A stretch of 44,221 nucleotides of DNA from a virus, in IMG/VR virus record IMGVR_UViG_3300050011_000158, positions 1 to 44,221 of that record, one strand, 5' to 3'. Positions 23,885-44,221 of this stretch are shown piece after piece (the stretch's first letter is position 1; the number at the start of each line of letters is the position of its first letter). The notes under the pieces are model-generated. The model was not told the DNA's origin. It saw only the letters and a program-made list of their open reading frames with translations, and made no database searches. A program made the position numbers and the translations under genes.

Positions 23885-26800
23885 ATGGCATCCACATACG
23901 ATTGGCAAAAAACGTACCCTACGGTTTGCAGCCGCACGTTAGACCCGACTGGAAAAAGCCTCGTGACCGTCGTGGGTATGCACGACCGTCAGATCACCGA
24001 CGCCGACATCAACCTCCTCCAAGACCTTCAGGATTACAAACGCCAACGTCTCCTCAACGATCAGGTTACGTCGGGATGCCTGACCTACACCCCCTTCCAA
24101 TACGCGGCCTTGGTCTCGAACACATTCTATGTTCCGTCTTTCGACCTTCTTTTCAACGGCGAAGTGATTACGATTCAAGGCAACAACTCATCCGCCCTGA
24201 CACTCAATGCGGTGTCCCCGTCCGCCCAGCCTCCAGTTTGGTCTCCGGGCACGGCGGAAGAGGACGCAAGACTCTACATCGCGTTCGTCGAGGTCTGGTA
24301 TCAATCGTTGAACCCACAGACGGGGCAGGGGTATTACACCGACCCGACCACGGGGCTGCGGTACTTCTATCCGTATGGTGGGGTTAACCCCGTATCGACT
24401 AACGCTACGTTAGCAGCCTTCCTCGACGATTCAGTTGATCCGTTCCAAGGGCTATTCACTACGGAGCGTGCTCAGATTCAGTGGCGTATCAGTGTTCAGC
24501 GCGTGGGGCTTAATTATGACTTCACGCAGTTTCAGTTTGGTCTCGATCCCTCAACAGCGACCAATCTTTACGCTCCGATGGCGGTACACCCGCAGGCAGG
24601 GCAGTCGTCTCCAGTCACCACGATTGATGGAAATCCCGCCACATATATGAACATGGGTTCGATCAACGGTGACACAGGGGTGTGGCGTGCGGGCAACGGC
24701 AACGTGTACAACTCGCTCGGCACCATGGATGGTTACAGCTACGCTTTCCCGCTCGCGACCATCTTTATGAAAAACTCAGGCAACTTCGACATCCGCACTA
24801 ACCCATGGGGTTGTGGAAATTCAAATCCTCCCGCGTATTGGCTCGCAAATCCAACTGGGACAAACGGACTACTCTCGTCAGGCATCTCGGGACGTTTTGA
24901 TTCTCGCCTCGCCGATCAAATTTTTCAAGACAACGTGGTGGATACTCGCTCAACGATTAACCTCACTGGTTGGGACATGGACGCTCTCTGCCGCTATGGG
25001 TTTGGTGATCTTGTACAAGGCGAAACTCAACTTGCGGTCTCTCGCGGAGACGCAACAGTTTCCACAACCAACGCGGAGAACGTCGGTTCACGGTTGAACT
25101 ACTATGTTTCCGTGGCACCAGCGAGCATCCTCAACACCAATACGATTAGTGCGTGGGATGGGTTCTCAAACGGCTTCAGCAGCGACCTTCGCACTTTCGC
25201 TTCTACCATAGCGGTTTCGATCAACAACAAATCTCTCGGCAGCAACGGTCAACCGTGGGTCAGCGGATCACCTCAAGGAGATGCGTTCACAATTACCCTA
25301 CCCGCCAGTTCACAGGCGACCATTCAATCTGTTGCTGTAACCGCATTGGTGACTAACCCCTCGACTGGAACCGTTTCCGCCGCCGCCTTGTTGAAGGGGC
25401 AGGTAACAATCAATGGTTTGGGCTCCAAGTCAGTGACCGTACAGTTGACCGATGCGCTGGGCGGTACCGCGTTTGACCCGGGCACAAACAACATCTATGC
25501 GACCATCGGGGTTCAATACCCCGCAGGATCGAACATCGACCTTCGCCATGTTCCGTATGTAATTGATGGGGGTCAGTTGTTTGACGCCTCCACGGGAGTT
25601 ACTATGCCAGTGTACGGTGTTTCAGAGTACGAAGTACAATCCGTACAGCTTGCGTTGCAGGCACAGACGGTTCTGGCAATCAACCCCGAATACTCCGACA
25701 CGGTTCTCGGCACCCGAATTTGGATTCTAGTTCCGGGCTCTTCAGGAATATCGCAGACGTTGGGCAGTCAAGCTTACACTCAATTCATTATCCCCCGCAC
25801 CGACCTCAATGAGTCCGTGAATGGTTTGTACGGTGTCAATGCGTGGGATTTCAATACGGGCATATTTTATCCTATCTCAGGCCGCGTGATGAGCGGAAAC
25901 AACTATATTTTGACAATCCAGAAGGCGGTTCCCACGTCATCTACGGTGGTCGTTTCCTTCATCGCACAGAACACCGCTCAACTAGCTTACAACGCCCCCG
26001 TCAAGGGCGTCACTGAAATAGAGGAAACAGTTCTATTCGGTAACTACAGCGGGCCTTTCTTTAATCTTGACCAGCGTGTGCAGGTGGTCTCGATTGGGTA
26101 TAATACGTTCCCAGCAAACACCACCACAATTGTTTTGGCGGCTCAACAGCCCACCATCAGCACCTTATCCACGGGGTGCAGCATCAAAGGTATTGCAGGT
26201 GACGATACTGGGAATCGATTCATTTGGGTTTCGGACGGCGCATCGCCTACACCAAACTTTACTGCTGTAACTATACCCGCGACCAACATCACCATCAACA
26301 ATGGCGTCATCACCCTGATTGTTCCGGGTAACTACGCAACGTCTCAGTTTTTCTTTGTAGGATCAATCCTCCCAGCGTTCGACCCACTTTCAGTCTTGAT
26401 AGTAGAGATGCATTACATTCCGTATCAGGGTGAGGGAGTGTTGAACCGCGACTACGAGTTCTTGCACGCTGAAGATAACGCGCTCATCACGACCAATGGT
26501 ACGGGTTCTGCCCCCATTGTCGGGTTGCAGGACATCTACCCGTATAACCGTGAACTACCGATTGTAGTTACTATGCCTGCACAGCCCGGTTGGAGTGATG
26601 CCACACTCACCAACGTTGCACTCGAAACGTTCTTTGATTCAAACTTCGTGGCAATGCGGGTGAATAACGTCGAGCACACGTTCTTGGCTCCGATGCACAC
26701 CAACGATTTTATTCCGCCAATCAACAAGGATATTCGTAAGTCTGTACGCTTCGTGACTGCGGCGACAGGCGGAAGGGGGTTTGGAGTAGCGGTTCCCCAC

Positions 26801-27793
26801 TTGGGCTTTGCCATTGCTTCGCCGACCGCTCGTACTGTATTGGGTGTGAATCTACAAGCTACCACCGCCCCCATTACGCTGTATGTCAACAACGTCACTG
26901 GCAGTGACAGCAACAGTGGGTTGTCGTTAAGCACAGCAAAGTTGACGATTTTGTCCGCAATGAATGAACTACCGCCTGTCCTCAGCTTCCCATGTGTCAT
27001 CGAGCTTGCGGATACAGGAGTGGCATACAATCTCACCAATATTCAAGGTATCGGCGGACTGGAAGAAATTACGCTAGGGAACGGTGTAAGTGAAAGTCTC
27101 TTTGCGTTCGCCTTAGCTAACCTGTCTCGTGTAGTACAGGGCGAGGGGCGTTTGGTTATCTCGATTCAATCGGGAGCAAGCGGTCAGGCTGTCATTGATG
27201 CCACGGGATTTGCGGGTACGGGTACGGGTCCAACGTATGCGTTCTACATCGATACGAGCCGCGTGATCCTCAACGGCATCCTGTTCAAGGGGTTCCAAGG
27301 CACTGCCATTAAGGGTAGAAACGCCGACATTCAATTCGTGAATTGCAGTTGGCTAGATAACCTTCAAGCGGGCTCTTTCGAGGAAGCGTGCGGCGTGGTT
27401 ATTGATGGGGGCACCATCACATTACCGAGTTCTGGTGTAGGGCACATCGGGACTGGTGGCACAAGCATTAGTGCTACAAGCGTGAATATGCTCCTTGAGA
27501 CGAGTCCCGCCGCCTTGAACACTGCTCCGTTCTTTGTTGTTGAGCGCGGATCGAACCTTACGCTCATGACGCACGGAATTAGCTCATTGCAGGAAAATTT
27601 ACCGCAAGCGTCCCCATTTATAGTTGTGGCTCAGGCCGAATTAAATAGCAGCATCGTGGTCACGGCAGATTTTCAAACTTGGGGAAGCTGTGTACTTGAA
27701 GCAAACTCAGTTTTGGCTCAGACCGTTCAGACAAATTCATTCCTTGGTGGTGTCATAGAAGACGCTTCCTCGGAGATAGTAACGCAATTATAA
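23885..27793 (+). CDS. Tail fibre/baseplate protein with C-terminal beta-helix
   Basis: This 1302-residue protein starts MASTYDWQ, and the N-terminal 130 residues include DADINLLQDLQDYKRQRLL, a helix seen in proteins that attach fibres to baseplates. The middle is beta-rich and has no clear match. Near residue 999 LYVNNVTGSDSNSGLSLSTA begins, the usual opening of right-handed parallel beta-helix (pectate-lyase-like) domains; Asn/Gly/Val turns continue to about residue 1185. Such domains bind or cut surface sugars and form receptor-binding tips. No catalytic residues can be assigned by eye. It follows the HNH stop by one base and is followed nine bases later by the giant adhesin gene. Confidence 0.65.
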   Translation: MASTYDWQKTYPTVCSRTLDPTGKSLVTVVGMHDRQITDADINLLQDLQDYKRQRLLNDQVTSGCLTYTPFQYAALVSNTFYVPSFDLLFNGEVITIQGNNSSALTLNAVSPSAQPPVWSPGTAEEDARLYIAFVEVWYQSLNPQTGQGYYTDPTTGLRYFYPYGGVNPVSTNATLAAFLDDSVDPFQGLFTTERAQIQWRISVQRVGLNYDFTQFQFGLDPSTATNLYAPMAVHPQAGQSSPVTTIDGNPATYMNMGSINGDTGVWRAGNGNVYNSLGTMDGYSYAFPLATIFMKNSGNFDIRTNPWGCGNSNPPAYWLANPTGTNGLLSSGISGRFDSRLADQIFQDNVVDTRSTINLTGWDMDALCRYGFGDLVQGETQLAVSRGDATVSTTNAENVGSRLNYYVSVAPASILNTNTISAWDGFSNGFSSDLRTFASTIAVSINNKSLGSNGQPWVSGSPQGDAFTITLPASSQATIQSVAVTALVTNPSTGTVSAAALLKGQVTINGLGSKSVTVQLTDALGGTAFDPGTNNIYATIGVQYPAGSNIDLRHVPYVIDGGQLFDASTGVTMPVYGVSEYEVQSVQLALQAQTVLAINPEYSDTVLGTRIWILVPGSSGISQTLGSQAYTQFIIPRTDLNESVNGLYGVNAWDFNTGIFYPISGRVMSGNNYILTIQKAVPTSSTVVVSFIAQNTAQLAYNAPVKGVTEIEETVLFGNYSGPFFNLDQRVQVVSIGYNTFPANTTTIVLAAQQPTISTLSTGCSIKGIAGDDTGNRFIWVSDGASPTPNFTAVTIPATNITINNGVITLIVPGNYATSQFFFVGSILPAFDPLSVLIVEMHYIPYQGEGVLNRDYEFLHAEDNALITTNGTGSAPIVGLQDIYPYNRELPIVVTMPAQPGWSDATLTNVALETFFDSNFVAMRVNNVEHTFLAPMHTNDFIPPINKDIRKSVRFVTAATGGRGFGVAVPHLGFAIASPTARTVLGVNLQATTAPITLYVNNVTGSDSNSGLSLSTAKLTILSAMNELPPVLSFPCVIELADTGVAYNLTNIQGIGGLEEITLGNGVSESLFAFALANLSRVVQGEGRLVISIQSGASGQAVIDATGFAGTGTGPTYAFYIDTSRVILNGILFKGFQGTAIKGRNADIQFVNCSWLDNLQAGSFEEACGVVIDGGTITLPSSGVGHIGTGGTSISATSVNMLLETSPAALNTAPFFVVERGSNLTLMTHGISSLQENLPQASPFIVVAQAELNSSIVVTADFQTWGSCVLEANSVLAQTVQTNSFLGGVIEDASSEIVTQL

Positions 27794-27802
27794 GGATTGA
27801 AA

Positions 27803-30800
27803 ATGCCTCCTCCTCTAAATCTCGGCTATGTGGGTCCCGTATCGGCGCTGATTGACAGCAACAACGTTCTGACCGTCAATTGGGTGCCGAATCTGTTGCC
27901 GCCGACAGCTTACACGAGTTGGGAAATCATCCTCAATGGAACCCCCACCGCTTCCGTATCTGCTCCCGTCCCGTACACAGGTACGCCGTTATTTTACACA
28001 ACGACCTTGGCCGCAGGTTCGTGGACGATGGACATGCGGACCACTGCTGCGGGAAGCCCGCCCGTGTCGTTCGATTGGGAGTATTTTAATTCCACCTTCA
28101 ACGTGTGGGAATCCGTCGCTGTGCTACTTCCTCCGTATCTCGCCTTCCCTGACGCCATTCCTTCGGCAGATGTCATATTTAGCAACACCACGCTTCAACT
28201 GGGACAACCTCTAACACTCACGCTTCAGCCCGCGTATACGAATGCCGATCAGTGGCAAGTTCTTTGGCCTGATGGCTCAAATACGGGATGGTTGCCGCTC
28301 TCCGCATCCCTCTTGACCAAGCAGTTTTCGATATCGGGACCGCTGGACGTTGTAATCCAGACCCGCAAGCTTTACAACACCTCGTCCTACAGCCCACAGG
28401 TCATCCTGATGCGCCAGCTTACGGTAGCGATATTCGTGGTCGATCAACAGTTCACGGGTACAACTACAACTTCCACCTCCTTGACAGGCACGTTGGGTAT
28501 CGGCGGTCAGCAGGGGTTTGAGATCACGGGCGCAACTGGCGTGGGATCAACCGCCAATCCGTGGGAAGTGGTTGCTCGTGCGATTGTGCGCGATACGGAT
28601 ACCAATGAACTCAAGTTGCTTGTCGCAACGACTCGTTTCTCCAATGCTTCATCCTTGCTTGGCACGATGGGTATTGACGTGTTTCCCATCGAGGGACGCC
28701 CGAAGGTTAAGGAACTGATTGTACCTGTCTACGAGAATAGCTTTAACTCTCTCACATCTGCTATTCCAGTGAGCATCACGACGACACAATTGCCGACAAC
28801 TATTTACGTCGGTAAGCCAATGGCAGAATTTCAGATGCAGGCGTCGGGCGGAAATCAGCCGTATGCTTGGTACACGGACGGGTTACCCGAGGGCTTGAAG
28901 CTGAGTGTCAACGGCGTGTTGAGTGGAACTCCGTTGGGTTTGGGCAATTTCTCCATTAACTTTGCGGTGCAGGATTCTAGCGTGCCGTTTTTTATCGCTG
29001 AAACGGCATTCCCTATCAAGGTGAGCACTGACTTGCTGGTGCAGATTGCACCTAGTCAATCATACACCATCTTTACGTTGCCCACCGTATCCCATTCTAC
29101 GCCTTTAAGTCCACTTGGAACCTCGTTAGGTGTGGCACAGGTTGACACCCCTTATTCGGTGCAGATGGTGGTCGGGAATGTTAACACATCCAACCCCACC
29201 TCGGGCGGATTGCCGCCGTACTCATGGCTTCTCGCCGCAGGAAACTTACCTATTGGACTCAGTATCAACCCCAACACAGGCTTGATTTCAGGCACACCGT
29301 GCACTTACAACTCGACTACAGATTACAGCAAAACGTTTTCCGCAGTCGTTCAAGTCACGGATGCTATCGGTGCAATCGCCACACAGACTTACACGATGAC
29401 ATTACAGCCCGCACCGCTGCAATTCGCTCCCAATGTCGATCAATCGACGGTCTACGCGGGGCAGCAATTCAAGCTGGTGCTCCCAATTTTCGGTGGAATA
29501 CCTCCCTACACGCTTACGGGTAACGGGGTTCTTCCAGTAACGGTAGGTAGCAGCAGCTTCTATAGTCTCCCCGCCCTCTTAGTGGATGGACAACTCGAAG
29601 TTGACGTGAATTTTGATACGGCTGGGACCTATACGTTTCTAGCCGAAGGGATTCAAGATAGTGCAACGCCGACTCACACGACGATTGCCCCAGCCCAATT
29701 CACCCTCACTGTTGAGACTGCTCTCAGTGATCCATTCCTTGTTCCCGCGCTCGTGAATCACGTCTGGGGAAACCCAGACGTAACCGAATACGATATCCCT
29801 ATAACGGGCACTTTTTCGGGCTTCTCCCTTGCCGATACTACCCTCACACCGATCACGCTGTCAAACGGAATTAAGGTCATAGTTAATTCCGCATCAGCCG
29901 AAGGACCGTTGAACGGATCGCCTACTGTAGGTCCTGTAGCTGTGTCCACTCCCATCAACTATGGTTTCTCTCCCTACTACACTATCCCCGGAATAGTGGT
30001 AACCCCAGTTGGGGTGAATTCCGAGCATTGGTACGCAAGATTCGTAGGGTATCTCATGCCGAGTGCTACAGGTACGTATACCATCGGCGTCAATAGCGAC
30101 GACGGGGCAAATGTGTTTGTTGGCGGTCAAACGATAGTCAGGAACTTGAATGTACAACAGCCCGCGAACAACTCGATTGCATATTCACAAAGCGGCACCG
30201 TCAGCCTCACGGCGGGTATTTACTACCCCCTAGTGGTAGAATGGCAGAACGGGGTGGGGCCGTATGATTTACAACTTCTGTGGACACCACCATCAAGCCC
30301 CGCATCTCCGTTCGACATCGAGTTAGGCTCGGCTGCTAACTACGCTCTGTTGGCGGCATCTGGTATCACCAACACGGGCACAACGATAGTGACTGGCGGC
30401 GTGATCGGCTCCAGTCCAACCCCGTCCATCACATTCGACGGCGGTACAGCTACAGTTGATAACGCCGATGCAGCAGCCGCGCAAAGCGCGGTTACAACGG
30501 CGGTTGCTTATTTCAACGGTTTAACCTACACGTCTCTCAGCGGTTCGTCTGTTAACCTCAGCACGAGCACTGGGGGCGGTGGAGGCGCGGGTGTGTACCA
30601 TGCTGGACATTACTCTGCGGGCTCGACAATGGATGCCCCGACCAGTATCACATTAGACGCACAGGGTAATCCAAACGCTTTGTTTGTGTTCAAAGCTAGT
30701 TCTTCAATTACATTTGAGTCTGGCGCATCCGTTCTTTTAGTCAATGGTGCACAGCCACAAAATGTGGTTTTCCTCGCTGGAACCACCATCATTCAAACTG

Positions 30801-33800
30801 GCAACGTCGGGGCAACGATCAACGGTACTCTTATCGCTGGAACACAAGTGACGTTCGGCGGTGGTACTTTCAACGGTCGTGCAATTGCTCAGACCGCCAA
30901 CATCACCATCGCAGCGGCAGTAGCAATCACCGTGCACGCTCACGGTAGTAGCCTCCAGCTTATTCCAAGCGTGAATTTAAGCACCAGTAGCACCGTCATT
31001 ACGGGCACCCTGACCGCCACATGGTGGAATGGTACAGCCACGACGTGGCTACCGCAGTCTTACGAGGTGGAATTTATCGGAACGTCGTCAGGGGTGTTTG
31101 GTAACGCCCAGTACGCCGTGCCTCTTAATTTTCAAAGAAACATCGCGGGCTTACCCACCACAATCTCGACGTTTTCTCAGACCTATACAACGTTGTCATC
31201 CAACACCCTGACGGGAACGGTATGCGGCTCGGCAATTACTTGGGCTACTGGCGACATCGGTGCTATGACGATAAACACTCGTCCGTACATTGCGGGTGAA
31301 GTGGTCGGCTTGAATCCTCGTCAGTCATACTACAATTCCCCCGATGTTCCTGAGCTTCCGCAAAGTCCGTCATCTGGTGATGGTCCGTGGACAGCCGTTG
31401 TGGGCTGCGGCTGTTCTTCAAATTGCCTGCCTTTGGGACTTTCACTTGATTCACATAGCGGGTTGATTTACGGAACGCTGTTGGGTGTGTTCACGGGTAC
31501 AAGCGTTATTGAGTATGTCGGAACCACTGGCATAGTTCACGGTATAGCGACTATCAATTGGCTCACTGTATCAAGTGCATTCCCAGTGATTAGCACTGGC
31601 TTGGACAGTATTCAAATGGGCACGGCACTGACGAATAGTTACATCACCGTTCCGTCGAATATCACTCCCATATCTGCCTCCATCTACTACATCAGGGGCA
31701 TCTTAGGTGGGACACTTCCCGCAGGCTTAACGCTAAGTCCAACGCCTTCAGGTCAGAAATTTTACATCACGGGGACGGCCACGGAGGGCGGGTACTTTGA
31801 CGTTTGGTTCCAAGTAATCGCGAGCACGGGCACGGCATACCTATACCATCGTCTCTCCATTGATTTTATCAACCCACTAATAATTACCACTCAGTCGCTA
31901 CCAACGGCGGATGCGGGTGCTTACTACGCTCTTTTGCAGGGCTTCGGTGGAGCACCGCCTTATACGTGGTCTTCTCCGAATTTCCCATTAGGTGTCGGCA
32001 TTGGAGCCTTCGCTGGTTTGTCGCTCAATTCAAGCACGGGTGTCATTAACGGTACACTGACTTCTCCTCCCGTAACGAGTCCAACTACACTCGGCGACAT
32101 CCAAGTCACACTTACGGATTCCACAGGTACCTCCGTTACGGATGGCTTAGGCTATCAGCCAACCCTCGACTTCATCTACAACAACGGTCTCCGCATAGTC
32201 ACCGCGACCCCATGGGGTGTAGCTACAGTCACCAACGATACGAATGGGTATTCGTTCCAGATGCAAGGAGCGGGCGGTACACCACCGTACTACTGGACGA
32301 TAAGTCCCCCAGCTACACTTCCGGGCGGTATTGTCTTCAATTCAGGTCAAGAGTTCGACACAGGGCAGCCCATCGACGGCGGTTGGTTCTCAGGCACATG
32401 GACGGGTGCGGCATACACGCCGAATCCAACTTCGATCACAGTCGTATTGACTGATAGCGTTTCAGGTACGAACTCTAAATTGTTTAATATTCGCACGGGT
32501 ACTTGGACGATAGGCATCGCCGGCACGGGCGTCGGCCCAATCCCACGGGGTGAATCGTATCAGGGATCGCTCGCGGCTACGGGGACATACACGCTACCCA
32601 TTCAGTGGGAAATTGCGCCAACCTCCGGCTACCCGAACCTTCTCCCGTCAGGACTATTTATACAAGCTGATGGCACAGGCGCAACCGCTACAATTGCGGG
32701 CACGTATTCCGGTTCCATATTGACGAATTCCCCAGTCAGAGTCATTGCAGTTGATGCTCTCGGCAACACGGCGGAAAATGTCTTGTTCCTCTCTACCGAC
32801 ACAAACTTGATCGTCGTCGGGTGGGATACTGTGCCGACATCGGGCGCTATTCAGCCGTTCCCGCTGCCCAATGCGGTTATCACGGGCAGTTACGGCCCAA
32901 TTCAACTCGTCGCTAAAAACGGTGTGCCTCTGGCAGGTGGTGTTGATGGTGGGGTGTACGGTAGGTACAATTGGAGCAGCGTCCCATCATTCCCGTTTGA
33001 TGGGATTTCGCTCGCAGGAAGCGGAGCAACGGCAGGTCAACTTTCGGGCACAGCTACGACACTGTTTAGCCAGAGCTTCACATTCACGGTATCAGACAGT
33101 CTCACGCCAGCCAATACCGCCACGTATACTACGACGTTCTCGTCGCAGGTGTCTGGTTTGACCATCACCACGGTAACGTTGCCACAGGCAGTCGCAGGCA
33201 CTCCGTACTCGTTCTCGCTTGCAGCCTCGCTGGGCTCGCCGCCGTATACGTTCTCTATTGTGGGAGGGGCTTTACCGTCTGGGCTCACGATGAATTCCGC
33301 AGGCTTGATTACGGGTACTACGTTGACATTAGGGACTACCCCCATCACGTTCCGTGTGACAGATAGCACGTCCGCGTACTCTAACAAACTTCTGTCCCTT
33401 ACGACCATCTCTGGGTTGGTACTGAAGACTGGGATCGATTATGAAGATTCAACCTCGTATGGCTATCTTGGATACGTTGATAAGGGTAACGTGGTCGGAA
33501 TTTCACCGCGTACAAATCTATCATTCTATGTGGTTGCGACGGGCGTAATTACTACAAACCCAGCCTCACTCGGAATAATTGTCAGTGGTGGGTTTAGCGT
33601 CGGAACTGTGACTATTTCGGGCGGTGTAGCTCTAATCCCACTGAATGGTCCGTTCTCGTCAGGAACCATCGGAAATAGCAACCCGCTGTCCATTTCGGTA
33701 ACGGATTCTGGTGTCACGGCTACTGGAACTTTTAATTGGGTGGTTTACGACGATGGAGCGTTGCGACTGGCAGCAAACAATGCATTCCCAGTCAAGTTGA

Positions 33801-33814
33801 CGACACCGAACTAA
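27803..33814 (+). CDS. Giant virion adhesin with putative-Ig repeats, PA14 and DUF3494 ice-binding-like domains
   Basis: The 2003-residue protein starts at ATG 27803 (AAGGA six bases upstream); the TTG six bases earlier is less likely. Domains in order: N-terminal beta-rich head; putative-Ig (He_PIG-type) repeats at about 332-408, 438-537 and 549-638, each with a G(G/S)xPPY motif and, in the first two, LPxGL(S/K)...G..SGTP; a PA14 domain at about 714-832 (WYARFVGYLMPSATGTYTI, NSDDGANVFVGG, PLVVEWQNGVGPYDLQLLW); a DUF3494 ice-binding-like domain at 837-1048 (LGSAANYALLAASGITNTG, ITLDAQGNPNALFVFKASS, SVLLVNGAQPQNVVFLAGT); then at least five more Ig-like units (about 1366-1870). A Cys cluster (CGCSSNC) lies between. 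It likely projects from the baseplate and binds surface polymers. Confidence 0.75.
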   Translation: MPPPLNLGYVGPVSALIDSNNVLTVNWVPNLLPPTAYTSWEIILNGTPTASVSAPVPYTGTPLFYTTTLAAGSWTMDMRTTAAGSPPVSFDWEYFNSTFNVWESVAVLLPPYLAFPDAIPSADVIFSNTTLQLGQPLTLTLQPAYTNADQWQVLWPDGSNTGWLPLSASLLTKQFSISGPLDVVIQTRKLYNTSSYSPQVILMRQLTVAIFVVDQQFTGTTTTSTSLTGTLGIGGQQGFEITGATGVGSTANPWEVVARAIVRDTDTNELKLLVATTRFSNASSLLGTMGIDVFPIEGRPKVKELIVPVYENSFNSLTSAIPVSITTTQLPTTIYVGKPMAEFQMQASGGNQPYAWYTDGLPEGLKLSVNGVLSGTPLGLGNFSINFAVQDSSVPFFIAETAFPIKVSTDLLVQIAPSQSYTIFTLPTVSHSTPLSPLGTSLGVAQVDTPYSVQMVVGNVNTSNPTSGGLPPYSWLLAAGNLPIGLSINPNTGLISGTPCTYNSTTDYSKTFSAVVQVTDAIGAIATQTYTMTLQPAPLQFAPNVDQSTVYAGQQFKLVLPIFGGIPPYTLTGNGVLPVTVGSSSFYSLPALLVDGQLEVDVNFDTAGTYTFLAEGIQDSATPTHTTIAPAQFTLTVETALSDPFLVPALVNHVWGNPDVTEYDIPITGTFSGFSLADTTLTPITLSNGIKVIVNSASAEGPLNGSPTVGPVAVSTPINYGFSPYYTIPGIVVTPVGVNSEHWYARFVGYLMPSATGTYTIGVNSDDGANVFVGGQTIVRNLNVQQPANNSIAYSQSGTVSLTAGIYYPLVVEWQNGVGPYDLQLLWTPPSSPASPFDIELGSAANYALLAASGITNTGTTIVTGGVIGSSPTPSITFDGGTATVDNADAAAAQSAVTTAVAYFNGLTYTSLSGSSVNLSTSTGGGGGAGVYHAGHYSAGSTMDAPTSITLDAQGNPNALFVFKASSSITFESGASVLLVNGAQPQNVVFLAGTTIIQTGNVGATINGTLIAGTQVTFGGGTFNGRAIAQTANITIAAAVAITVHAHGSSLQLIPSVNLSTSSTVITGTLTATWWNGTATTWLPQSYEVEFIGTSSGVFGNAQYAVPLNFQRNIAGLPTTISTFSQTYTTLSSNTLTGTVCGSAITWATGDIGAMTINTRPYIAGEVVGLNPRQSYYNSPDVPELPQSPSSGDGPWTAVVGCGCSSNCLPLGLSLDSHSGLIYGTLLGVFTGTSVIEYVGTTGIVHGIATINWLTVSSAFPVISTGLDSIQMGTALTNSYITVPSNITPISASIYYIRGILGGTLPAGLTLSPTPSGQKFYITGTATEGGYFDVWFQVIASTGTAYLYHRLSIDFINPLIITTQSLPTADAGAYYALLQGFGGAPPYTWSSPNFPLGVGIGAFAGLSLNSSTGVINGTLTSPPVTSPTTLGDIQVTLTDSTGTSVTDGLGYQPTLDFIYNNGLRIVTATPWGVATVTNDTNGYSFQMQGAGGTPPYYWTISPPATLPGGIVFNSGQEFDTGQPIDGGWFSGTWTGAAYTPNPTSITVVLTDSVSGTNSKLFNIRTGTWTIGIAGTGVGPIPRGESYQGSLAATGTYTLPIQWEIAPTSGYPNLLPSGLFIQADGTGATATIAGTYSGSILTNSPVRVIAVDALGNTAENVLFLSTDTNLIVVGWDTVPTSGAIQPFPLPNAVITGSYGPIQLVAKNGVPLAGGVDGGVYGRYNWSSVPSFPFDGISLAGSGATAGQLSGTATTLFSQSFTFTVSDSLTPANTATYTTTFSSQVSGLTITTVTLPQAVAGTPYSFSLAASLGSPPYTFSIVGGALPSGLTMNSAGLITGTTLTLGTTPITFRVTDSTSAYSNKLLSLTTISGLVLKTGIDYEDSTSYGYLGYVDKGNVVGISPRTNLSFYVVATGVITTNPASLGIIVSGGFSVGTVTISGGVALIPLNGPFSSGTIGNSNPLSISVTDSGVTATGTFNWVVYDDGALRLAANNAFPVKLTTPN

Positions 33815-33823
33815 GGAAAAACG

Positions 33824-36625
33824 ATGGCTACCGTATCAGAGACAATTGTCGTAACCGTGTCGGGTGTAAACCCGCAAACGAAGAATTATTCCATCCTCGT
33901 GAATACCGCCAGCGGTGCCATGGTGAGTCCTCCGCTCGCCATTTCCTATACTGGCACGAACGCGGGTATTGACAATATCGTAGCGACCATGCCTTCACAC
34001 TCGCTCACGTCAAACACAGCAGAAATTGCATGGCAAGCAGTGAACGGCACTATTGCTATATCGCCCGTTACGGCTACCGTGTACGCGAACTCATCTCAAA
34101 CTCCGGGCTTCATCGGATTCGGCGGGGTAAATCAGGGCACCTTCACAACGAACTCGTTGGTCTTCAACGAAGTTGTGGCGGGTCAACCACTCAGTGGGTT
34201 CTGTGCGCGGAACAACGTCTCCTTGTGTGGCGGCGGATACAAAGCTATCCCAATGTTGGCATTGCAGCAAGCCAACACGGGCGAAATTTGGGCAAGCAAC
34301 ATTAACGTTCCGGGCTCGGGCAGTGGCTCAACTGGTAACCCGTTTATTATGGACCTTACGGGATACTTCATAGTTGAGGTTCCCGGCACCTACACCATCG
34401 TCATAACCTTTGCCAACAAAAGTACATCCGCCCTATGGATTGGCAGTGGGGCATCCCTCGGGACTACTGGAAATACTAACGGAGGTGCGAATCCGTTCCC
34501 AGCGTCAGGACCCAATACGGCTTTTTGGAATGCCCAAGCCGCTCTCGGACTCCCCACAGGCAGTCATCTTGCGTGCGCTAGCAACGTGTACCCCGGCATA
34601 CTCGGAGGCAGCGTCAGCGCGTATGTCACTTTTACAGTCGCAGGTAAGTATCCGTTTGAGGCTGTCTACAATCAGTACCAACCCATTCAGTTCAGCGGGG
34701 ATACCAACGGCTACTTCCAAGTCAACTTTGTGTCAGGGCAAAGCACCATTTATACCAACACCAATGGGAACGGACCGGGGTGGCCAACATTCCTGCCTGT
34801 GTCTATTCAAGCTACCCCAGCACAGGGCGCGGTGGGAGCACGACAACTACAGTTGTCGGTCCAGTCGGGTGTCGCTAATCCAAGTTCCCCCACAACTGAA
34901 TTAGAGACTCAAAGCACAACCCAAGCTTTATACTTGACGATCACAGGTGTGCCATACACCACCATTCCGTACATTCCCGTTTTAGAGGGCGTGACAGGCG
35001 GTGTTTTTCTTTACGACAGCGCATCACCTCGGTTTGATTTTGGCGGCGAGCTTTATCCACCAGTCGGCGGCGTGCCCGTTACCGCTGCGGCAGTAGTCGC
35101 GGTGAACGCCACAAGCTTGTCAGGCGACAATACGGCTTGGACTGGTTTGCTCAGTCTTCCGTATAGCGGTAATCCACCTTCTGGTTTTTACACGCTGACG
35201 TACAATGGTGGTTCGGTGGTATCGGGTGTTGATGTTACTAATCTGACGATCACAGCGGATGACATCGCGTGGTTTGACAGCGCAAACGGAAGCATCGACT
35301 TATTCACGGCGTCGAGCGGTGGGGATTTACAATACCCAATTCAGATAGCATACATGGTCATGCCTGACCGAACTGGGATTACAGTTACCCCTTCTACGCT
35401 GCTCGCCAATGGTACGGCTCAAACCATTACAGTCAACTTGCCAAAGCCGATGAGCCCCGAACAGCAAGGGCTATATGGCACGGGCAATACGGTTAATACC
35501 CCCACGGCATCGTGCTCGGGCGGTGTTACCGTCACTACTCCCCCCGCCGCGATCTTGAACGGTAGCGGATGGCTCACGGGTTGGACTATGAATGTCACCG
35601 TGCCCTCAAGTTCGTCCAGCGGTTCTTTCCAATTGACTTTCGGCGTTACAGGCACGCTCACGTATTTGAACGGCAATCAGTTTACGACTGGTACCGTCAC
35701 CTACATTTCGGGCGCATCACCACTCGCTACTATCGCCACGACTGGCAACTCCTACACCGTGCCTACTAACTACTCCTTTGTCGTCGGCGGCGGCAGATCG
35801 GGCACGGCACCGAACTACACGATCACAGGAACTATCACGCTGACAGCGGTCATATTCAGCACGGACAACGGCGCGTTCACAACGAATAGCTTCTTCCGTA
35901 TCCAAGGCGCAACAAAAACAACGATAAGTACGGGCATCGTGTCGGCTGGGCCTACCCCCGTCGCTGGTGGGTATCACACCACTATCACCCTCACGACCAC
36001 CAGTGCCTACATTTGGGGAACGCCCGTCAGCCTCGGATACACGGCAACGGATTCTTTGAGCGGTTATATTGTCAATTACACCGACTCAAACACGTACAAC
36101 AACGGCAATGCCGCACCGGGCGGTGGGGGTGGCGGTGGATGCCCTGCGGTCGAGATGTGGTTGAGCGATTCCATGCAGGTTAGCGACTGTTTGGTGGGCG
36201 CTCTCCTCAGCACGCTGCCTGACGAGACCCTTGAGTACGTGAACAGCTTGCCATCGGTTGCGGTCTCGGAAGCAGTTCAGTGGATGGACTACAGCACCGA
36301 AGTTTGCTACCACTTTGTTGCGGAGAACGGTGCTGAAGTCATCGTGTCGGCTAGTACGCCCGTGCCCTCACGTGAATCGCTTGAATCGCTCGCAGACGGT
36401 ATGGAACCGTGTGAGATTGCCGCCTACGCCGATGAGATTCGTACTGGGGCACACGTCATTACCGATGTCGGAAACGGTCCAGAGTGGTCTCAGCTTACCA
36501 CGGCGGAATGTGTGGGTATGCGGTCTGTCGCACGTTTGTATTGCGGCGGGCGTAACTTTGCAGCGGGTGTAGAACGCGGCAAGTATATCTACACTCACAA
36601 TATAATCCCGATTATCGTGAAATAA
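33824..36625 (+). CDS. PA14-like tail protein ending in a degenerate Hint (intein-type) domain
   Basis: The 933-residue protein is beta-rich at the N-terminus. Residues about 105-305 contain a PA14-like sugar-binding part (YFIVEVPGTYTIVITFANKS, then AYVTFTVAGKYPFEAVYN). A Gly-rich linker (about 766-772) leads to C773, the first residue of a Hint-like domain: CPAVEMWLSD, VSDCLVGALLS, a VIVSASTPVPSRE segment in the place of intein block B, and at the end KYIYTHN, with H925-N926 followed by seven residues. The Cys start and His-Asn end match Hint autoprocessing signatures; the TxxH motif is missing its His. It could be cleaved or be a leftover module. It is encoded nine bases after the adhesin gene. 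Confidence 0.65.
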   Translation: MATVSETIVVTVSGVNPQTKNYSILVNTASGAMVSPPLAISYTGTNAGIDNIVATMPSHSLTSNTAEIAWQAVNGTIAISPVTATVYANSSQTPGFIGFGGVNQGTFTTNSLVFNEVVAGQPLSGFCARNNVSLCGGGYKAIPMLALQQANTGEIWASNINVPGSGSGSTGNPFIMDLTGYFIVEVPGTYTIVITFANKSTSALWIGSGASLGTTGNTNGGANPFPASGPNTAFWNAQAALGLPTGSHLACASNVYPGILGGSVSAYVTFTVAGKYPFEAVYNQYQPIQFSGDTNGYFQVNFVSGQSTIYTNTNGNGPGWPTFLPVSIQATPAQGAVGARQLQLSVQSGVANPSSPTTELETQSTTQALYLTITGVPYTTIPYIPVLEGVTGGVFLYDSASPRFDFGGELYPPVGGVPVTAAAVVAVNATSLSGDNTAWTGLLSLPYSGNPPSGFYTLTYNGGSVVSGVDVTNLTITADDIAWFDSANGSIDLFTASSGGDLQYPIQIAYMVMPDRTGITVTPSTLLANGTAQTITVNLPKPMSPEQQGLYGTGNTVNTPTASCSGGVTVTTPPAAILNGSGWLTGWTMNVTVPSSSSSGSFQLTFGVTGTLTYLNGNQFTTGTVTYISGASPLATIATTGNSYTVPTNYSFVVGGGRSGTAPNYTITGTITLTAVIFSTDNGAFTTNSFFRIQGATKTTISTGIVSAGPTPVAGGYHTTITLTTTSAYIWGTPVSLGYTATDSLSGYIVNYTDSNTYNNGNAAPGGGGGGGCPAVEMWLSDSMQVSDCLVGALLSTLPDETLEYVNSLPSVAVSEAVQWMDYSTEVCYHFVAENGAEVIVSASTPVPSRESLESLADGMEPCEIAAYADEIRTGAHVITDVGNGPEWSQLTTAECVGMRSVARLYCGGRNFAAGVERGKYIYTHNIIPIIVK

Positions 36626-36633
36626 GAGGAGAC

Positions 36634-37941
36634 ATGGCGACCACAAATCCGTACACGTATGCCTACAAAGGGCCTCCGTTCAACTGGCTCGGGCACGTCT
36701 CCGAGACTCAGTGGAATGCCTTTCAAGCTTGGTATACAGCGTTGAAAATCAGTGCGCCTCCAACGCCTACACCAGCTTCGCCCGGAAGTACGAGCACAAA
36801 TCCCGCACCTTCACCCAGTGCGGGGACTACTACTCCCGTAACCCCTCAGTCGAATTCATCGACCATCGATGCTACGGCTCTAGCGGCGACCACAATTAAG
36901 GGTTTCGAGAAATTTAGCCCAACGGCATACCCCGACCCTGCGGGGCAGACAAAGACGTATTCTATCGGGTGGGGTCACCAGATTATTTCGGGTGACGGAC
37001 TTTCTACATCATCGGTAATTACGATGGATCAAGCGAACACCTTGCTGCTGTCTGACATGCAAACCGCGATCAACGCCGTCAGCAGTTCCGTAACCGACTA
37101 TTCATCCTTGGAGCCAACCCAGCAGGCGGCTTTGATTTCGCTGGCGTACAACATCGGTGGCACTGCCTTTAAGAATTCAACGTTGGTTTCCGACCTTAAC
37201 GGCGGCAACACAGCGGCGGCGGCGGCTCAGTTTAATAGCTTCGTGTACGTTGGCACGACTGTAAACGCCGGGCTGGTTTCGAGACGAACACAGGAGCAGG
37301 CTCTCTTCAGTACAGGCGTCGTCCTTAGCAATACGGGCACCTCGGCTGTCAACGCCTCCAACGCCTCCAACGCCTCCAACAGCGGCGGGGCGATGACCCC
37401 GCAGCTTCATTATCAGATTCGTGCCCAGCAAATGCGAAAAACCGCAGGTGCCTTGGAACAGTATTACCAGACGGTTAACGATGACCAACTTGCTCCATCA
37501 TTTGCAAAAGCCGCGTGGCAACCACCTACGACAGGGTATTTTCAGTACGCTCATCGCGATGACCACCTGCCAGCGGTTACGGTGGGGCAGATCAAGACCT
37601 ACTTGAAGGAGCGTCTCCAACGTCAGGATGAGGCGGTTTTTCACATGAACCACGCCCGCAATATCATTGAAAAGATTGAAGATAGAGCACAATACCAAGC
37701 GGACGCTAAGACGCAGGTACCGAAATTGATCTCTCAAATCAACGACTATTTTGCTCTTCCACGATACGCCCCTGTTCTAGTGAAGGATCAAACAGACGTG
37801 TACCCAGCGAATTCAACCACGCCTCGGTATCGGGTTCACGAACTGGACAATCCAACAACTTGGGAACTGGAGCAACACGGTCGTGCACTTCCGGGCGGTT
37901 CTGTGGACCTGAAAGAAACACCACAGCCCGCTACTGGTTAA
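36634..37941 (+). CDS. Tail-associated GH24 lysozyme with linker and C-terminal helical domain
   Basis: The 435-residue protein contains a phage-type GH24 lysozyme domain at about 83-232. E92 in KGFEKF is the likely general acid, D101 in AYPDPAG and T108 in KTYSIGWGH complete the triad, and LISLAYNIG and RRTQEQALF mark the C-terminal half. Before it is a Thr/Pro/Ser-rich linker (41-78), after it a nearly pure Ala-Ser-Asn tandem stretch from a 9-bp DNA repeat, then a helical domain (about 250-370) with an NDDQLAPSFAKAAW segment. It lies among baseplate genes, so it most likely acts during entry, making a hole in peptidoglycan, rather than in host lysis. AAGAGGAGA precedes the ATG. Confidence 0.85.
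   Translation: MATTNPYTYAYKGPPFNWLGHVSETQWNAFQAWYTALKISAPPTPTPASPGSTSTNPAPSPSAGTTTPVTPQSNSSTIDATALAATTIKGFEKFSPTAYPDPAGQTKTYSIGWGHQIISGDGLSTSSVITMDQANTLLLSDMQTAINAVSSSVTDYSSLEPTQQAALISLAYNIGGTAFKNSTLVSDLNGGNTAAAAAQFNSFVYVGTTVNAGLVSRRTQEQALFSTGVVLSNTGTSAVNASNASNASNSGGAMTPQLHYQIRAQQMRKTAGALEQYYQTVNDDQLAPSFAKAAWQPPTTGYFQYAHRDDHLPAVTVGQIKTYLKERLQRQDEAVFHMNHARNIIEKIEDRAQYQADAKTQVPKLISQINDYFALPRYAPVLVKDQTDVYPANSTTPRYRVHELDNPTTWELEQHGRALPGGSVDLKETPQPATG
37351..37380 (+). repeat. Three-copy 9-bp tandem repeat inside the lysozyme gene
   Basis: AACGCCTCC is repeated three times (37351-37377) followed by a partial AAC, encoding Asn-Ala-Ser units in the linker after the GH24 domain. Such short repeats vary in number by slippage and make flexible linkers. 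Confidence 0.75.
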
Positions 37942-37944
37942 ACT

Positions 37945-38736
37945 ATGTCATTTGATTACAACGTTTTGGTGATTGATCCGACGACGCAACAGCCTATCGG
38001 TGCTTGCGACCATCAGCAAAGCTTCGAACGGTATGTTGTGGATTTCAATGATTTTCGCACCTTGCACTATGCTGGAAACACCGCGTTGAACATGCGGGCT
38101 CCCATCAACGGTACGACTATGGTGCGTATGTGGATTTCGGGAGAAGAGGTCCAACAAGATGACCCCACGTATGGGTGGATAGTTGTGCGTGATCCAGACC
38201 GACTGGATGCTGTTGTCGCAACCGATCAATTTTACAAAATCCTGTTTGTTAAGCCAGTCCGTCTTGTGGTGTCGTTAATCGAGGTGTCGTATTTGAGCAC
38301 GCAGGGGTATTGCTTGAAGTGCAGCGCGATGGGCTCCTTGAATGATTTCAAGAACGCAGCTTCGGGGAGTTTTGTACATGTAACCCAGCAGACGAAATTG
38401 GCTCAAAAGGGGTTAAAGTGGATTCTGACCTCCCAATGCGCTTTTTATCCGACATTTGTTTGCCCCCTTAAGAGTTATGTGGGCAAGAAATTGGGTATTC
38501 AACTAACAGACACCGACATTCAGAATGCTGTGCAGATCGCTCTGAACACAATGCAGAACGTCCAGCAAGCACAGAATACGGCTCAGGTGCTTGACCCATT
38601 AGAAATGATTAAAGACATCCAGTACGTAACGGCACAGATCGCCCCTGACGATCCGACAACCATACAGGTTGGAGCCATGATTACGACCTTCAGCGGTACG
38701 TCAGTCCCACTGTCGTTTCAGATGGTGGTGAACTAA
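37945..38736 (+). CDS. Baseplate wedge protein, probably T4 gp25 / P2 gpW-like
   Basis: This 263-residue protein starts at ATG 37945 with a weak ribosome binding site, three bases after the lysozyme stop. The N-terminal part is beta-rich. Residues about 145-263 (AQKGLKWILTSQCAFYP, LKSYVGKKLGIQL, then LDPLEMIKDIQYVTAQ and SVPLSFQMVVN) recall the gp25/gpW wedge fold, where an ILxT..G....P.(Y/F)G..L segment is followed by a final two-strand end. Its stop overlaps the ATG of the gpJ-like gene, the same order as in P2 and many myoviruses. The N-terminal extension is not part of the usual family. The assignment is by pattern and position. Confidence 0.55.
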   Translation: MSFDYNVLVIDPTTQQPIGACDHQQSFERYVVDFNDFRTLHYAGNTALNMRAPINGTTMVRMWISGEEVQQDDPTYGWIVVRDPDRLDAVVATDQFYKILFVKPVRLVVSLIEVSYLSTQGYCLKCSAMGSLNDFKNAASGSFVHVTQQTKLAQKGLKWILTSQCAFYPTFVCPLKSYVGKKLGIQLTDTDIQNAVQIALNTMQNVQQAQNTAQVLDPLEMIKDIQYVTAQIAPDDPTTIQVGAMITTFSGTSVPLSFQMVVN

Positions 38737-41700
38737 TGCCTACGCCGATAACCAGTTTGTCCCCACTTCAGTTGGTGACGCCGTTACTGCCGAATAACGT
38801 CCAGACGATATCCGTGGATTCGTCAGTGCTTCCAGTTGTAGTTGTCGCTGACGCGAATACATCCCGCATCGAGGTGTCGATCTACAATACGACCTACGTA
38901 GCGGCAAAGTTCACCTCCGCAACAGTCAATGGGGTGACCAAGCACACGTTTTCTATTGGCGTTCCCTTGATTCCTGCGGTTCTGGAAACCACAGTCCAAA
39001 TTCTTGGGCGAAACTACAACCCTTTTGGGGTTTGGGCACCGCTCATCACATTCTCGACAGGCTACACTCTCGTCGATCCTAATGGGAACGTGCAAGTCGC
39101 TACTGTCGGCGGCGTTTCTGGCAACTATGGACTGACTGGCAGCCCGCCCACCATTCCCGTGCAACCTCCGTGGAGTGCACAGGCGGGTGGAATCACTTTC
39201 GACGGCAGTGGTAACACGGTAATTATGTGGACGAACCTTGGCGTTCTTGCCGTTTCTCCGACTATCAAATTCGCGCTGATTTTTTTTCAGAGTAATCTCG
39301 CAGTTCAGATCGGCCCGCCGTCAGGCATTCAGGCGTTTAAGGATCAGACGGATTGCACTCTTCAGTGGGTGACCCCCTCGTTTGCAAGTCCCAATATCTC
39401 CCTTGTCGGTGTGCGAGTCATGCTCTCAACCGATCCCGCTGGCATCAATCCGCCATACGTCCAATTCGGTGATTTGATTAACGGCATCACGAGTTCAGTC
39501 AACACTGTGATTGACTCGGAAACAACTAAATCCACGGTCGGCAATACAACCGTCAGTACCACCACTCAGACCACGATGCCGACGAACTACAGCACCTTGG
39601 ATGTACCATCATCGTTTTTCGGTGCCGCGACCGAATTCTTTGCGATGTTCTCCACTGTCATTCAGGAGACTAACCCCAACTCCACGGCTGTCTATGAGTC
39701 TCAGCAAAACGGCCCCCTGACTTGTGGGTTCGTGAATCTCAAAGTGGTCAGCCCAACGGACTTTCCAGTGCTTCAGCGTCAACAGGATATTGCTGGGCGT
39801 ATCATTGCTCAAATTTTACGGCAACAGCCTAACCTTGACCTGTCGCCGCGTTCAGAAATTCGCGACGTGCTCGTCGATCCTATTGCCGCAGAATTATCGA
39901 GCATGAGTGTTCGCGAGTGGTTCGCCCGCAACGCTACATCCATCTCGGCCATCAGTCAGATTGACAACGTGAGCGGTAGCGGGGTGTCCGACCCATTCAA
40001 TAGCAGCCCGTACAAGCAACAGATTGCCCGTGCCTATGGGCTTAATCCGACCAATACTCAAAACCTGATTGACACTCAGTTCAACATTCTCGGCGAGGGG
40101 GCGGGTTTGACCCGTGGCGGGGCAACTTCAGCTACCACAATTCTGACGTTCTTCACATACACGCAACCCACGCAGAGCATTACAATCCCCGAGAACGCGA
40201 CGGTTGCGACTATCGCCGACGCCAACACTCCCGCTCTGAACTTTATTACTCGTGGCTCAGCGGTGCTCGATGTTTCCAACCTGAACTCGTACTACAATGC
40301 GGTGCAGGGTTGGTGGGCAGTCACCGTACCTGCGGAATGCACCATTGCAGGCTCCGTGGGGAACGTTGGTGCGGGTACGATCCGTTCGGTTGTGAATGGT
40401 CTCCCTTCCGGCATCAACGTTACTAACCTTGTGGCGGCTCAATACGGTTCCGATCAGCAGTCAAACTTTCAGTTTGCGGCCCTGATTCAAGCACGTCTCG
40501 TTACGGGCGTGGATTCAGGTACGCGCCATGGCTATCTCGTAACTGCCTTGCAGACTCCGGGCATCATAGCGGCTGTGATCGTGGCGGCGGGTGACTTAGA
40601 TATGCTCCGTGACTGGGACCCGATCCGCCAGAAGCACGTTTTTGGCTGCGTGGATATCTACACTCGCGGCACGACGCTTACCCAGCAAAATGAGAGCGTC
40701 ACATTCACATACGGAACTGTGGGGATTTACGGCAATCTACCGACATACCTACCCCTCACCTTGTCCGACTCGCAGTTGATCCGCTTTAACATCCCGACAT
40801 TTAATACGTTGACCTCTCCGATCTATACGGCTGTGGAACTCGTCGTGACTCGTGGGTCAAGCAATTTCTATCTCGGCATTGAACGCGCCCAAATCGACAA
40901 TGTGGGTGGTAATATTTTCATTAACCCGTTCGACCCGTGTTACCAGTACGTAGGATCGGGAGCTACTACGGCTAAGATTCCGTTGCTTATCGGCGGTATC
41001 CCCGCAAATAACCGAACCGCCGTTGCCGCCCTCGCGAGTGCGGGAAGTTCTTATACCTTCGGACTATTCGCACGTCTACAAACTTCATTGCTCCACACCC
41101 CTACTCTTCAGCCCGTCATTGACGTAGCCTCAGTTACAGGTAAAACAGGCGAAACTGGGTCCGTAAGCACCCCCCTGATTGAACTCATTCACACTTCGGA
41201 TTTCCTGCTGTACGGCGGTTCCAACAAGGCGGGAGACGAGGTTAACGTATCGACAACGACGAGTGCCCCAGTCACTAAAACGATTACGGCGAGCATGGCG
41301 ACTCCAGCCATTATTGATATCGCGATGGACGTGCCTCTCAGTGCGACGGGTGCACCACAAAATATTCTGTCGGTGCTGAGCACAGACCTTTCGACTTCAT
41401 ACGTTTGGGGGGTCGATTACATCATCGTCGCCCTCGATACCTACCACACCTACGGATTGAACTTGCTGACTTCTACGGTGCCAATCACCAACATCGAAAT
41501 TGATTCGAATGGGAACCTGACGGTAACTACTCCCAACAATTTTGGCGTTGGGGCGAGTATAACCTTAAGCCAACTCGGAGTCGCCCAATTCCTAAGCGGG
41601 CAGACCGTCATTGTCGCCACGGCTTCCCCAACGCAGTTTACAGCGACTTATCCACATGCACCTTATGCATCGGCTACAGACTCGGTATTTGCTACTGGGT

Positions 41701-43007: not shown

Positions 43008-44221
43008 TGGCGACAATAACCAACATTGTCGAGACAGCGGGGAGCGTTGTCACGCTCACCGTCAACAGCGGATACACATTCGCTACGGGCAACATCGTCC
43101 AAATGTGGGGATTGACCACGGGTTGGTGGTTGAACGGACGGATTGTCACCCTTCTAGCAGGTACGACCAACACATCGCTAGTGTTCGCCGACCCGACCAC
43201 GAACGGTCCTCAGCCTTTAGTCGCAGAGACGGGTCAAGTAGCGATATTTGTACCCCAAAACGTACCGCCTGACGAACTGTATCTCCAGCCAAGGGAAAAT
43301 TTGCTCCCGTATGAAGACGCACGTTTCAATTCCTTGGTCCAGTCCGTTGCAAACTTCTACATGACCCGCAACGATCAGAGCACGTGGGGCAATGTCCTTC
43401 GCGCTGTCGCTATGGAATTGTCGAGGCTTGAATACTACTACGCTTACGATCTCATCAACAAGGTTCCGTCCTATCTGACACCGCCTGACATTCGTCGTCG
43501 TTGGGCTGACCCGTGCTACGTGAGTTCCTACTGGCCGAGCCCCACACAGTTTGATCTCGATTTCAAAACGATGCTCGTGGACCTGATTGCCGCCTACCGT
43601 CTGGGCTCCACCGTAGTCAGCATTCAAGACGTGATCTTTGCCTATACGGGCATCAACATCGTGGTGGAGGAACTCTATAAATTCATCGGGGATGGTTTCT
43701 ACGACCAATCCGACCGTAATGCGATCAAGGTCAGCGTCAACGTTGGCGGTACGAACCCGCTACAGTCTATCACCAGTTTGGTTCAGTTACAGGCTATCGT
43801 TCAGAGTCTTTACGGAGCTATCGACCTTGCGAAAGCCGCACACGTGGGGCTTGAATTCACCACGGTCTTTGGCGAAGGCGAGGATTTGGATTGTTTGATA
43901 AGCCCAAGGTACGTGACCCAGCAGATGTATGATGTGATCTCCCCCACAATGCAGGGGTACTACCATCTAGATTCTTACGTGACAGTCAACCCAGTTCTGT
44001 TCTGGAAGAAGAATACGTCGTTTGTTAATCCTAATCAAACTAGTGGGTTGGGTCTTGTCATTACGGATTCAAATGGCAACCTTCAGATGGTCACCGCGAT
44101 TACGACTGGTCAGACGGGCTCGTCGCTACCGATCTGGAATCTTACCGCTGGGGGCATCACTGTCGATGGCGGCGTGACGTGGACGAACATTTCTCCCGCA
44201 GTGACGGATATTCAGATCGTG
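43007..44221 (+). CDS. Baseplate gpI-like protein (3' end cut by window)
   Basis: The frame opens at ATG 43007, overlapping the gpJ-like stop by one base, and is open for 405 codons to the window edge. Residues 1-80 are a beta module (GLTTGWWLNGRIVTLLAGTT) shared with two other baseplate genes. Residues about 90-240 are helical and Tyr/Leu-rich (MTRNDQSTWGNVLRAVAMEL, SRLEYYYAYDL, then LIAAYRLGSTVVSIQDVIFA followed by YTGINIVVEELY). That last segment looks like the kGT..ai...i...TG pattern of gpI-type baseplate proteins, which come after gpJ in P2. Near the edge PIWNLTAGGITVDGGVTWT is a P.W......TvDGg..WT motif typical of phage fibre modules. Confidence 0.65.
   Translation, partial: MATITNIVETAGSVVTLTVNSGYTFATGNIVQMWGLTTGWWLNGRIVTLLAGTTNTSLVFADPTTNGPQPLVAETGQVAIFVPQNVPPDELYLQPRENLLPYEDARFNSLVQSVANFYMTRNDQSTWGNVLRAVAMELSRLEYYYAYDLINKVPSYLTPPDIRRRWADPCYVSSYWPSPTQFDLDFKTMLVDLIAAYRLGSTVVSIQDVIFAYTGINIVVEELYKFIGDGFYDQSDRNAIKVSVNVGGTNPLQSITSLVQLQAIVQSLYGAIDLAKAAHVGLEFTTVFGEGEDLDCLISPRYVTQQMYDVISPTMQGYYHLDSYVTVNPVLFWKKNTSFVNPNQTSGLGLVITDSNGNLQMVTAITTGQTGSSLPIWNLTAGGITVDGGVTWTNISPAVTDIQIV

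Follow-up and report, generated by a model that had tools for sequence, protein, structure and literature searches.

DUF3494 is regarded as a domain of cellular cold adaptation that microbes hand on to one another. We describe here a DUF3494 domain that is an endogenous module of a phage, embedded in a giant adhesin of 2005 amino acids (aa) encoded by IMG/VR record IMGVR_UViG_3300050011_000158 (G000; 44,221 nucleotides, called the window below). In being a large adhesin with immunoglobulin (Ig)-like repeats in which a putative ice-binding domain is presented as if tethered, this protein resembles the bacterial ice adhesins of the SfIBP/MpIBP type (PMC5014055, PMC9957290). However, those proteins are anchored to cells and carry secretion signals, whereas the window adhesin is a gene of a phage baseplate cluster, lacks the combination of secretion signal and cell-surface anchor, and begins with an N-terminus (MKMPPPLNLGYVG...) in which no signal peptide is seen by eye; moreover, MpIBP binds ice not by DUF3494 but through a repetitive solenoid that depends on Ca. 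The solved DUF3494 proteins EFCIBP (6eio), AnpIBP (7bwx), ColAFP (3wp9), SfIBP_1 (6bg8) and TisAFP (3vn3) share family and fold with the window domain (Z 25-29), as well as the order of strands, the helix and the layout of the b-face columns, but sequence identity is only 22-32%. Unlike them, the window domain falls in a phage-only clade and is built into a virion-type protein with no evident signal peptide.

Among viruses, PF11999, the Pfam family of DUF3494, has been reported from contigs of Central Arctic marine viral operational taxonomic units (vOTUs; PMC11515562), which we compared by description, not by sequence; the genes there were read as auxiliary metabolic genes (AMGs) for host cryoprotection rather than as a virion adhesin domain. 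The same study names Synechococcus phage S-SKS1 as a holder of homologs, and our PF11999 search of S-SKS1 (HQ633071) returned nothing at E<=10. Hyperionvirus proteins in BFVD provide a virus-encoded DUF3494 fold (E 9e-10), but this is a eukaryotic giant virus whose domains are 20-29% identical to that of the window. The nearest cultured relative of the window phage is Tunturiibacter phage Tunturi_5 (PP885688), a myovirus of 309 kb from Finnish tundra at 69 degrees N that infects an acidobacterium and whose contractile tail is visible (PMC11924767). Its gp246 and gp245 occupy the same place in the locus order as the window adhesin, but they are two genes instead of one and are without the cassette of PA14 and DUF3494 described below. 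The literature searched contained nothing linking DUF3494 with phage, and a DUF3494 module that belongs to a clade of the phages' own and sits in an adhesin of the baseplate cluster appears to be undescribed. With moderate confidence, we read it as an adhesion module, exchangeable within a giant Ig-like baseplate fibre protein of a jumbo contractile-tailed phage lineage; a polymer or solid would be its most likely ligand.

The assignment to the DUF3494 family is secure and far beyond chance. PF11999 (Ice_binding) covers residues 852-1041 of the 2005-aa open reading frame (ORF), at 30350-30919, with 90.2 bits and E 1.8e-25 against a curated cut-off of 28.7 bits, and the match is nearly full length (profile positions 2-205 of 208). 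A six-frame genomic profile search gave 96.9 bits at the same coordinates and matched none of 14 control genomes, while phmmer matched 11 distinct PDB-chain sequences (best E 2.7e-13), nearly all of them named ice-binding, antifreeze or DUF3494. The AlphaFold2 model, built from an alignment of 86 sequences, reached a mean predicted local distance difference test score (pLDDT) of 93.5 and a predicted template modelling score of 0.89. It is a discontinuous beta-solenoid of triangular section with one long alpha helix (63-78) bracing the solenoid strands, as is typical of the DUF3494 fold. VIA-align placed it at Z 25-29 to 25 PDB entries of DUF3494, with the next-ranked match at Z 13; it superposes on 7bwx with Z 29.1 and a root-mean-square deviation of 1.5 Å over 196 residues, and on 6eio with Z 28.5. 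The first-pass annotation of this DNA, made from the letters alone, had proposed a DUF3494 domain inside a giant phage adhesin on the strength of five motifs, all of which we find in frame at 30305-30946, and had named the lack of both a profile match and a predicted solenoid as grounds for abandoning the idea; both are clearly present, and family, fold, phage origin and position in a baseplate cluster all bear the proposal out. Its location was also right, with the boundaries moving slightly from residues 837-1048 to about 837-1049 (structural boundaries about 30305-30943, + strand). The parts of the protein are as follows.

27797-33814, + strand: giant adhesin ORF, 2005 aa, with He_PIG Ig-like repeats, PA14 and DUF3494
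27797-28996, + strand: conserved N-terminal part, residues 1-400, 58-95% identity among orthologs, homologous to Tunturi_5 gp246 (43%)
29126-29401, + strand: He_PIG domain (putative Ig-like), the best of four in the protein, residues 444-535 (Pfam, family E 7.2e-20)
29837-31036, + strand: variable cassette, residues about 681-1080 (PA14, DUF3494 and linker), from the ortholog comparison
30011-30295, + strand: PA14 domain (also GLEYA), residues 739-833 (PF07691 E 3.1e-17, PF10528 E 2.5e-10)
30305-30943, + strand: DUF3494/Ice_binding domain, residues 837-1049 (Pfam, phmmer, AlphaFold2, VIA-align)
30353-30907, + strand: putative b-face columns, mapped by alignment
33434-33811, + strand: conserved C-terminal part, residues 1880-2005, mostly 78-90% identity among orthologs

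The domain belongs to a phage-only clade. Scanning IMG/VR revealed 44 loci at 34-61% identity to the window DUF3494, confirmed by a second scan, and relatives, most of which belong to the phage-only clade, lie on at least 40 IMG/VR contigs. In comparison, the best bacterial matches in a GTDB scan had 28-46% identity, mostly below 40% over the full domain, and the best cellular identity was about 42% when 297 Acidobacteriota genomes were taken together with that scan. A tree built from 86 domains gathered 31 viral ones in a single clade on a long stem, with a Shimodaira-Hasegawa-like approximate likelihood ratio test (SH-aLRT) value of 99. This clade stayed intact after the 12 best Acidobacteriota sequences were added (29 rows, SH-aLRT 97; 30 rows including a long-branched G011 copy, SH-aLRT 75). 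Recent capture from hosts is therefore rejected as far as sampled; the domain belongs to a long-standing phage-only clade and is not a recent acquisition from a cold-adapted host. More than one entry into viruses probably took place, because the DUF3494 domains of two viral contigs (L042, L043) fall among bacterial copies, grouping with Acidobacteriota/Kaistia sequences outside the phage clade as a probable separate acquisition. Within one acidobacterial family, 21 of 120 genomes have PF11999 proteins of their own. An INPHARED tblastn search with three different DUF3494 domains as queries gave no match.

The module is also reused within genomes, which counts in favour of its being an adhesion module: G008, a 223-kb contig syntenic with the window, has six DUF3494 copies and G011 has five, in different protein scaffolds 479 to 2101 aa long. 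Several small proteins, L004, L005 and L016 among them, have the domain starting at residue 4-12, which leaves no room for a signal peptide. Both G008 (L145:691-3201) and G011 (L152) also encode a phage protein of about 840 aa with two tandem DUF3494 domains.

Within the adhesin, DUF3494 lies in the part that changes. Orthologs occur on five IMG/VR contigs, and in Tunturi_5 the protein is split over gp246 and gp245. Comparing three orthologs in blocks of 40 residues, we found identities mostly of 80-95% at residues 121-400, and of 18-60% in most blocks of residues 681-1080, where insertions reach 67 residues between flanks of up to 95%. Window residues 14-575 align to gp246 and 1101-2000 to gp245; residues 721-1100 have no counterpart in Tunturi_5, and PF11999 has no match anywhere in its 309-kb genome. 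A Pfam scan of two orthologs shows no PA14; two modules of about 45 aa, which we call 'NNG', stand in its place, while DUF3494 is kept. The closest relative of the window DUF3494 is the copy in a non-orthologous protein (L002, 62%), the copies of its own orthologs being more distant. Constant ends around a changing middle with a lectin-type domain form the pattern that would be expected of a ligand-binding cassette, and cassette exchange would be the simplest reading of these comparisons. A repeat-based source of the variation, like that of a diversity-generating retroelement, was rejected, as no direct repeats of >=20 b were found in 27797-36625.

The NNG module, whose consensus resembles YTGxIxGGxxNAYxGxxFxVSGFxNxxNNGTFxCxASTATxLTLNNPNG, is found repeatedly next to DUF3494 in many proteins of phages, namely the L009 and L156 adhesins (residues ~700-850), L006, L017, L021, L022, L042, L043 and L045; it has no Pfam match in the two orthologous adhesins scanned. 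The two Tunturi_5 genes, gp246 and gp245, carry the annotation 'regulator of chromosome condensation', which is probably misleading.

Directly before DUF3494 sits the PA14/GLEYA domain. It matches PF07691 and has the DD site, carrying the SDDG motif of Ca/sugar-binding PA14 lectins, and its PDB relatives are the sugar-binding flocculin Flo5 and the PA14 of RsgI3. The conserved ends of the fibre would anchor the adhesin in the baseplate, residues 1-400 being the presumed virion anchor, and the swappable middle cassette, here a lectin-like PA14 with DUF3494, would project from the virion. This cassette may then make a reversible surface contact before irreversible attachment to the host, with the DUF3494 face touching a polymer or solid of the host envelope, the biofilm or the soil matrix; a polymer, in line with PA14, is the most likely ligand. 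Virion location, exposure and ligand of the adhesin are what we infer from these features. Should host or soil polymer binding be true, it would add a second ligand class to a well-studied beta-solenoid, help to explain DUF3494 in ice-free habitats, and caution against labelling every viral PF11999 gene a cryoprotection AMG.

Several points weigh against an exchangeable adhesion module. The low identity of the cassette could partly reflect rapid drift instead of exchange, and the cassette occupies the middle of the protein, unlike classical tail fibres with their free C-terminus. The adhesin is placed in the virion from its gene neighbourhood, and we found no virion proteomics in PMC11924767. 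The acidobacterial host rests solely on relatedness to Tunturi_5. We know of no ligand for any phage-clade DUF3494.

Ice itself is possible as the ligand, though on balance unlikely. In that case the b-face would grip ice or the surfaces of brine channels in seasonally frozen soil and either keep virions near ice-associated hosts or shield them from recrystallisation damage. The solved DUF3494 structures that the domain matches so closely in fold are ice-binding or antifreeze proteins. We mapped the b-face by alignment, rather than on coordinates, to the ice-binding site (IBS) positions of TisAFP7 (PMC7966756) and the b-face columns of PMC12337378. The column of small residues (A/G/S) is complete in the window at 6/6 (A853, G942, S968, G995, A1014, A1031), as is the S/T column (S855, T944, S970, T997, T1016, T1033), and K966 is the one charged residue among 18 alignment-mapped positions. 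These scores equal or exceed those of proven ice-binding proteins (small and S/T columns 6 and 4 in 6eio, 5 and 3 in 7bwx, 4 and 1, and 3 and 1 in the domains of 5uyt). Across the phage clade, the small column is 6/6 in 27 of 31 domains, and charge is 2.0% on the b-face versus 4.3% elsewhere in the same domains, compared with 7.4% on both in bacteria. Small-column entropy is low (0.64 vs 1.04, with 8.6% of random sets as low); that of the S/T column is not. Such composition is compatible with ice binding but is not proof of it. The tundra origin of the best cultured relative and the precedent of MpIBP, a giant Ig-repeat bacterial adhesin proven to bind ice, albeit by another fold (PMC5014055), point the same way. 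On the other hand, DUF3494 has no diagnostic IBS motif and is common in ice-free habitats (PMC12337378, PMC7966756), the S/T column keeps 2/6 in the G011 ortholog of the adhesin and 0/6 in a G015 paralog, and Tunturi_5 itself, although from tundra, lacks any DUF3494. If ice binding is true, these virions are physically adapted to frozen soil in a way of which we found no description. That this jumbo soil phage lineage is the first known to adhere to ice, through an ice-gripping clade of its own with several copies per particle, we consider doubtful.

Less likely than ice as ligand, and in our judgement improbable, is a rigid spacer or stabiliser, that is, a solenoid that is merely a sturdy segment of the fibre and binds nothing. 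Beta-solenoids are common fibre shafts, the domain sits in mid-protein among Ig-like repeats, and it is kept in the orthologs despite divergence of its surface. However, DUF3494 is a capped globular domain that does not stack end to end, and a spacer is expected neither where a protein that is otherwise conserved varies most nor as the N-terminal module of the small proteins described above. Of the functions that the first-pass annotation had offered (ice, crystals, surface polymers or a rigid spacer), the mere spacer loses weight because the cassette that houses DUF3494 next to a lectin-like PA14 is hypervariable and apparently exchangeable. A host-directed cryoprotection AMG, the published reading of three PF11999-bearing Central Arctic vOTUs (PMC11515562), is very improbable for a domain inside a 2005-aa baseplate-cluster protein without evident signal peptide.

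The adhesin gene lies in a phage setting. At its left end, the window encodes a DnaB-like helicase, and the genes around the adhesin, which itself has no PHROG match, form a tailed-phage tail and baseplate cluster.

23885-27793, + strand: 1302-aa neighbour, 46% identical to its ortholog, the 'tail fiber protein' gp247 of Tunturi_5
33824-36625, + strand: 933-aa neighbour, related in part (38% over 268 aa) to the 'minor tail protein' gp244 of Tunturi_5
36634-37941, + strand: 435-aa lysozyme-type (endolysin) tail protein (phrog_7 E 5.7e-37)
37945-38736, + strand: 263-aa baseplate protein, ortholog of Tunturi_5 gp242 (47%)
38736-43007, + strand: 1423-aa baseplate wedge / Baseplate_J (PF04865 E 1.1e-7; Tunturi_5 gp241 baseplate wedge, 46%)
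43007-44221, + strand: baseplate protein (Tunturi_5 gp240, 51%), running off the window

This cluster is collinear with the tail fibre and baseplate genes of Tunturi_5 at 34-51% identity, and by its place there the adhesin ORF is, on gene content, a Caudoviricetes gene. Bacterial contamination or a misassigned contig was rejected on the same collinearity, which extends to phage contigs. The syntenic contig G008 encodes a major head protein 71% identical to that of Tunturi_5, a portal match, ribonucleotide reductase and UvsX. The collinearity with Tunturi_5 and the synteny with G008 and its head and portal genes make a jumbo tailed phage the most likely genome from which the window, as a fragment, derives. 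By its relatedness to Tunturi_5, the host is probably a member of the Acidobacteriota. The contractile sheath family PF04984 had no match in any contig, from which we draw no conclusion since Tunturi_5 shows a contractile tail. AlphaFold2 modelling of adhesin residues 1-323 from five sequences gave an unusable model (pLDDT 40).

By eye, the last ~170 residues encoded by the 933-aa ORF (36086-36625, starting CPAVEMW and ending ...YTHNIIPIIVK) resemble a Hint/intein-like autoprocessing domain, and a search of this suspected domain gave no Pfam match at E<=1. In G008 (L135-L145) we also noted at least five proteins of homing-endonuclease families (phrog_314 and others), together with a nucleotide-sugar epimerase, a UDP-glucose dehydrogenase and glycosyltransferases.

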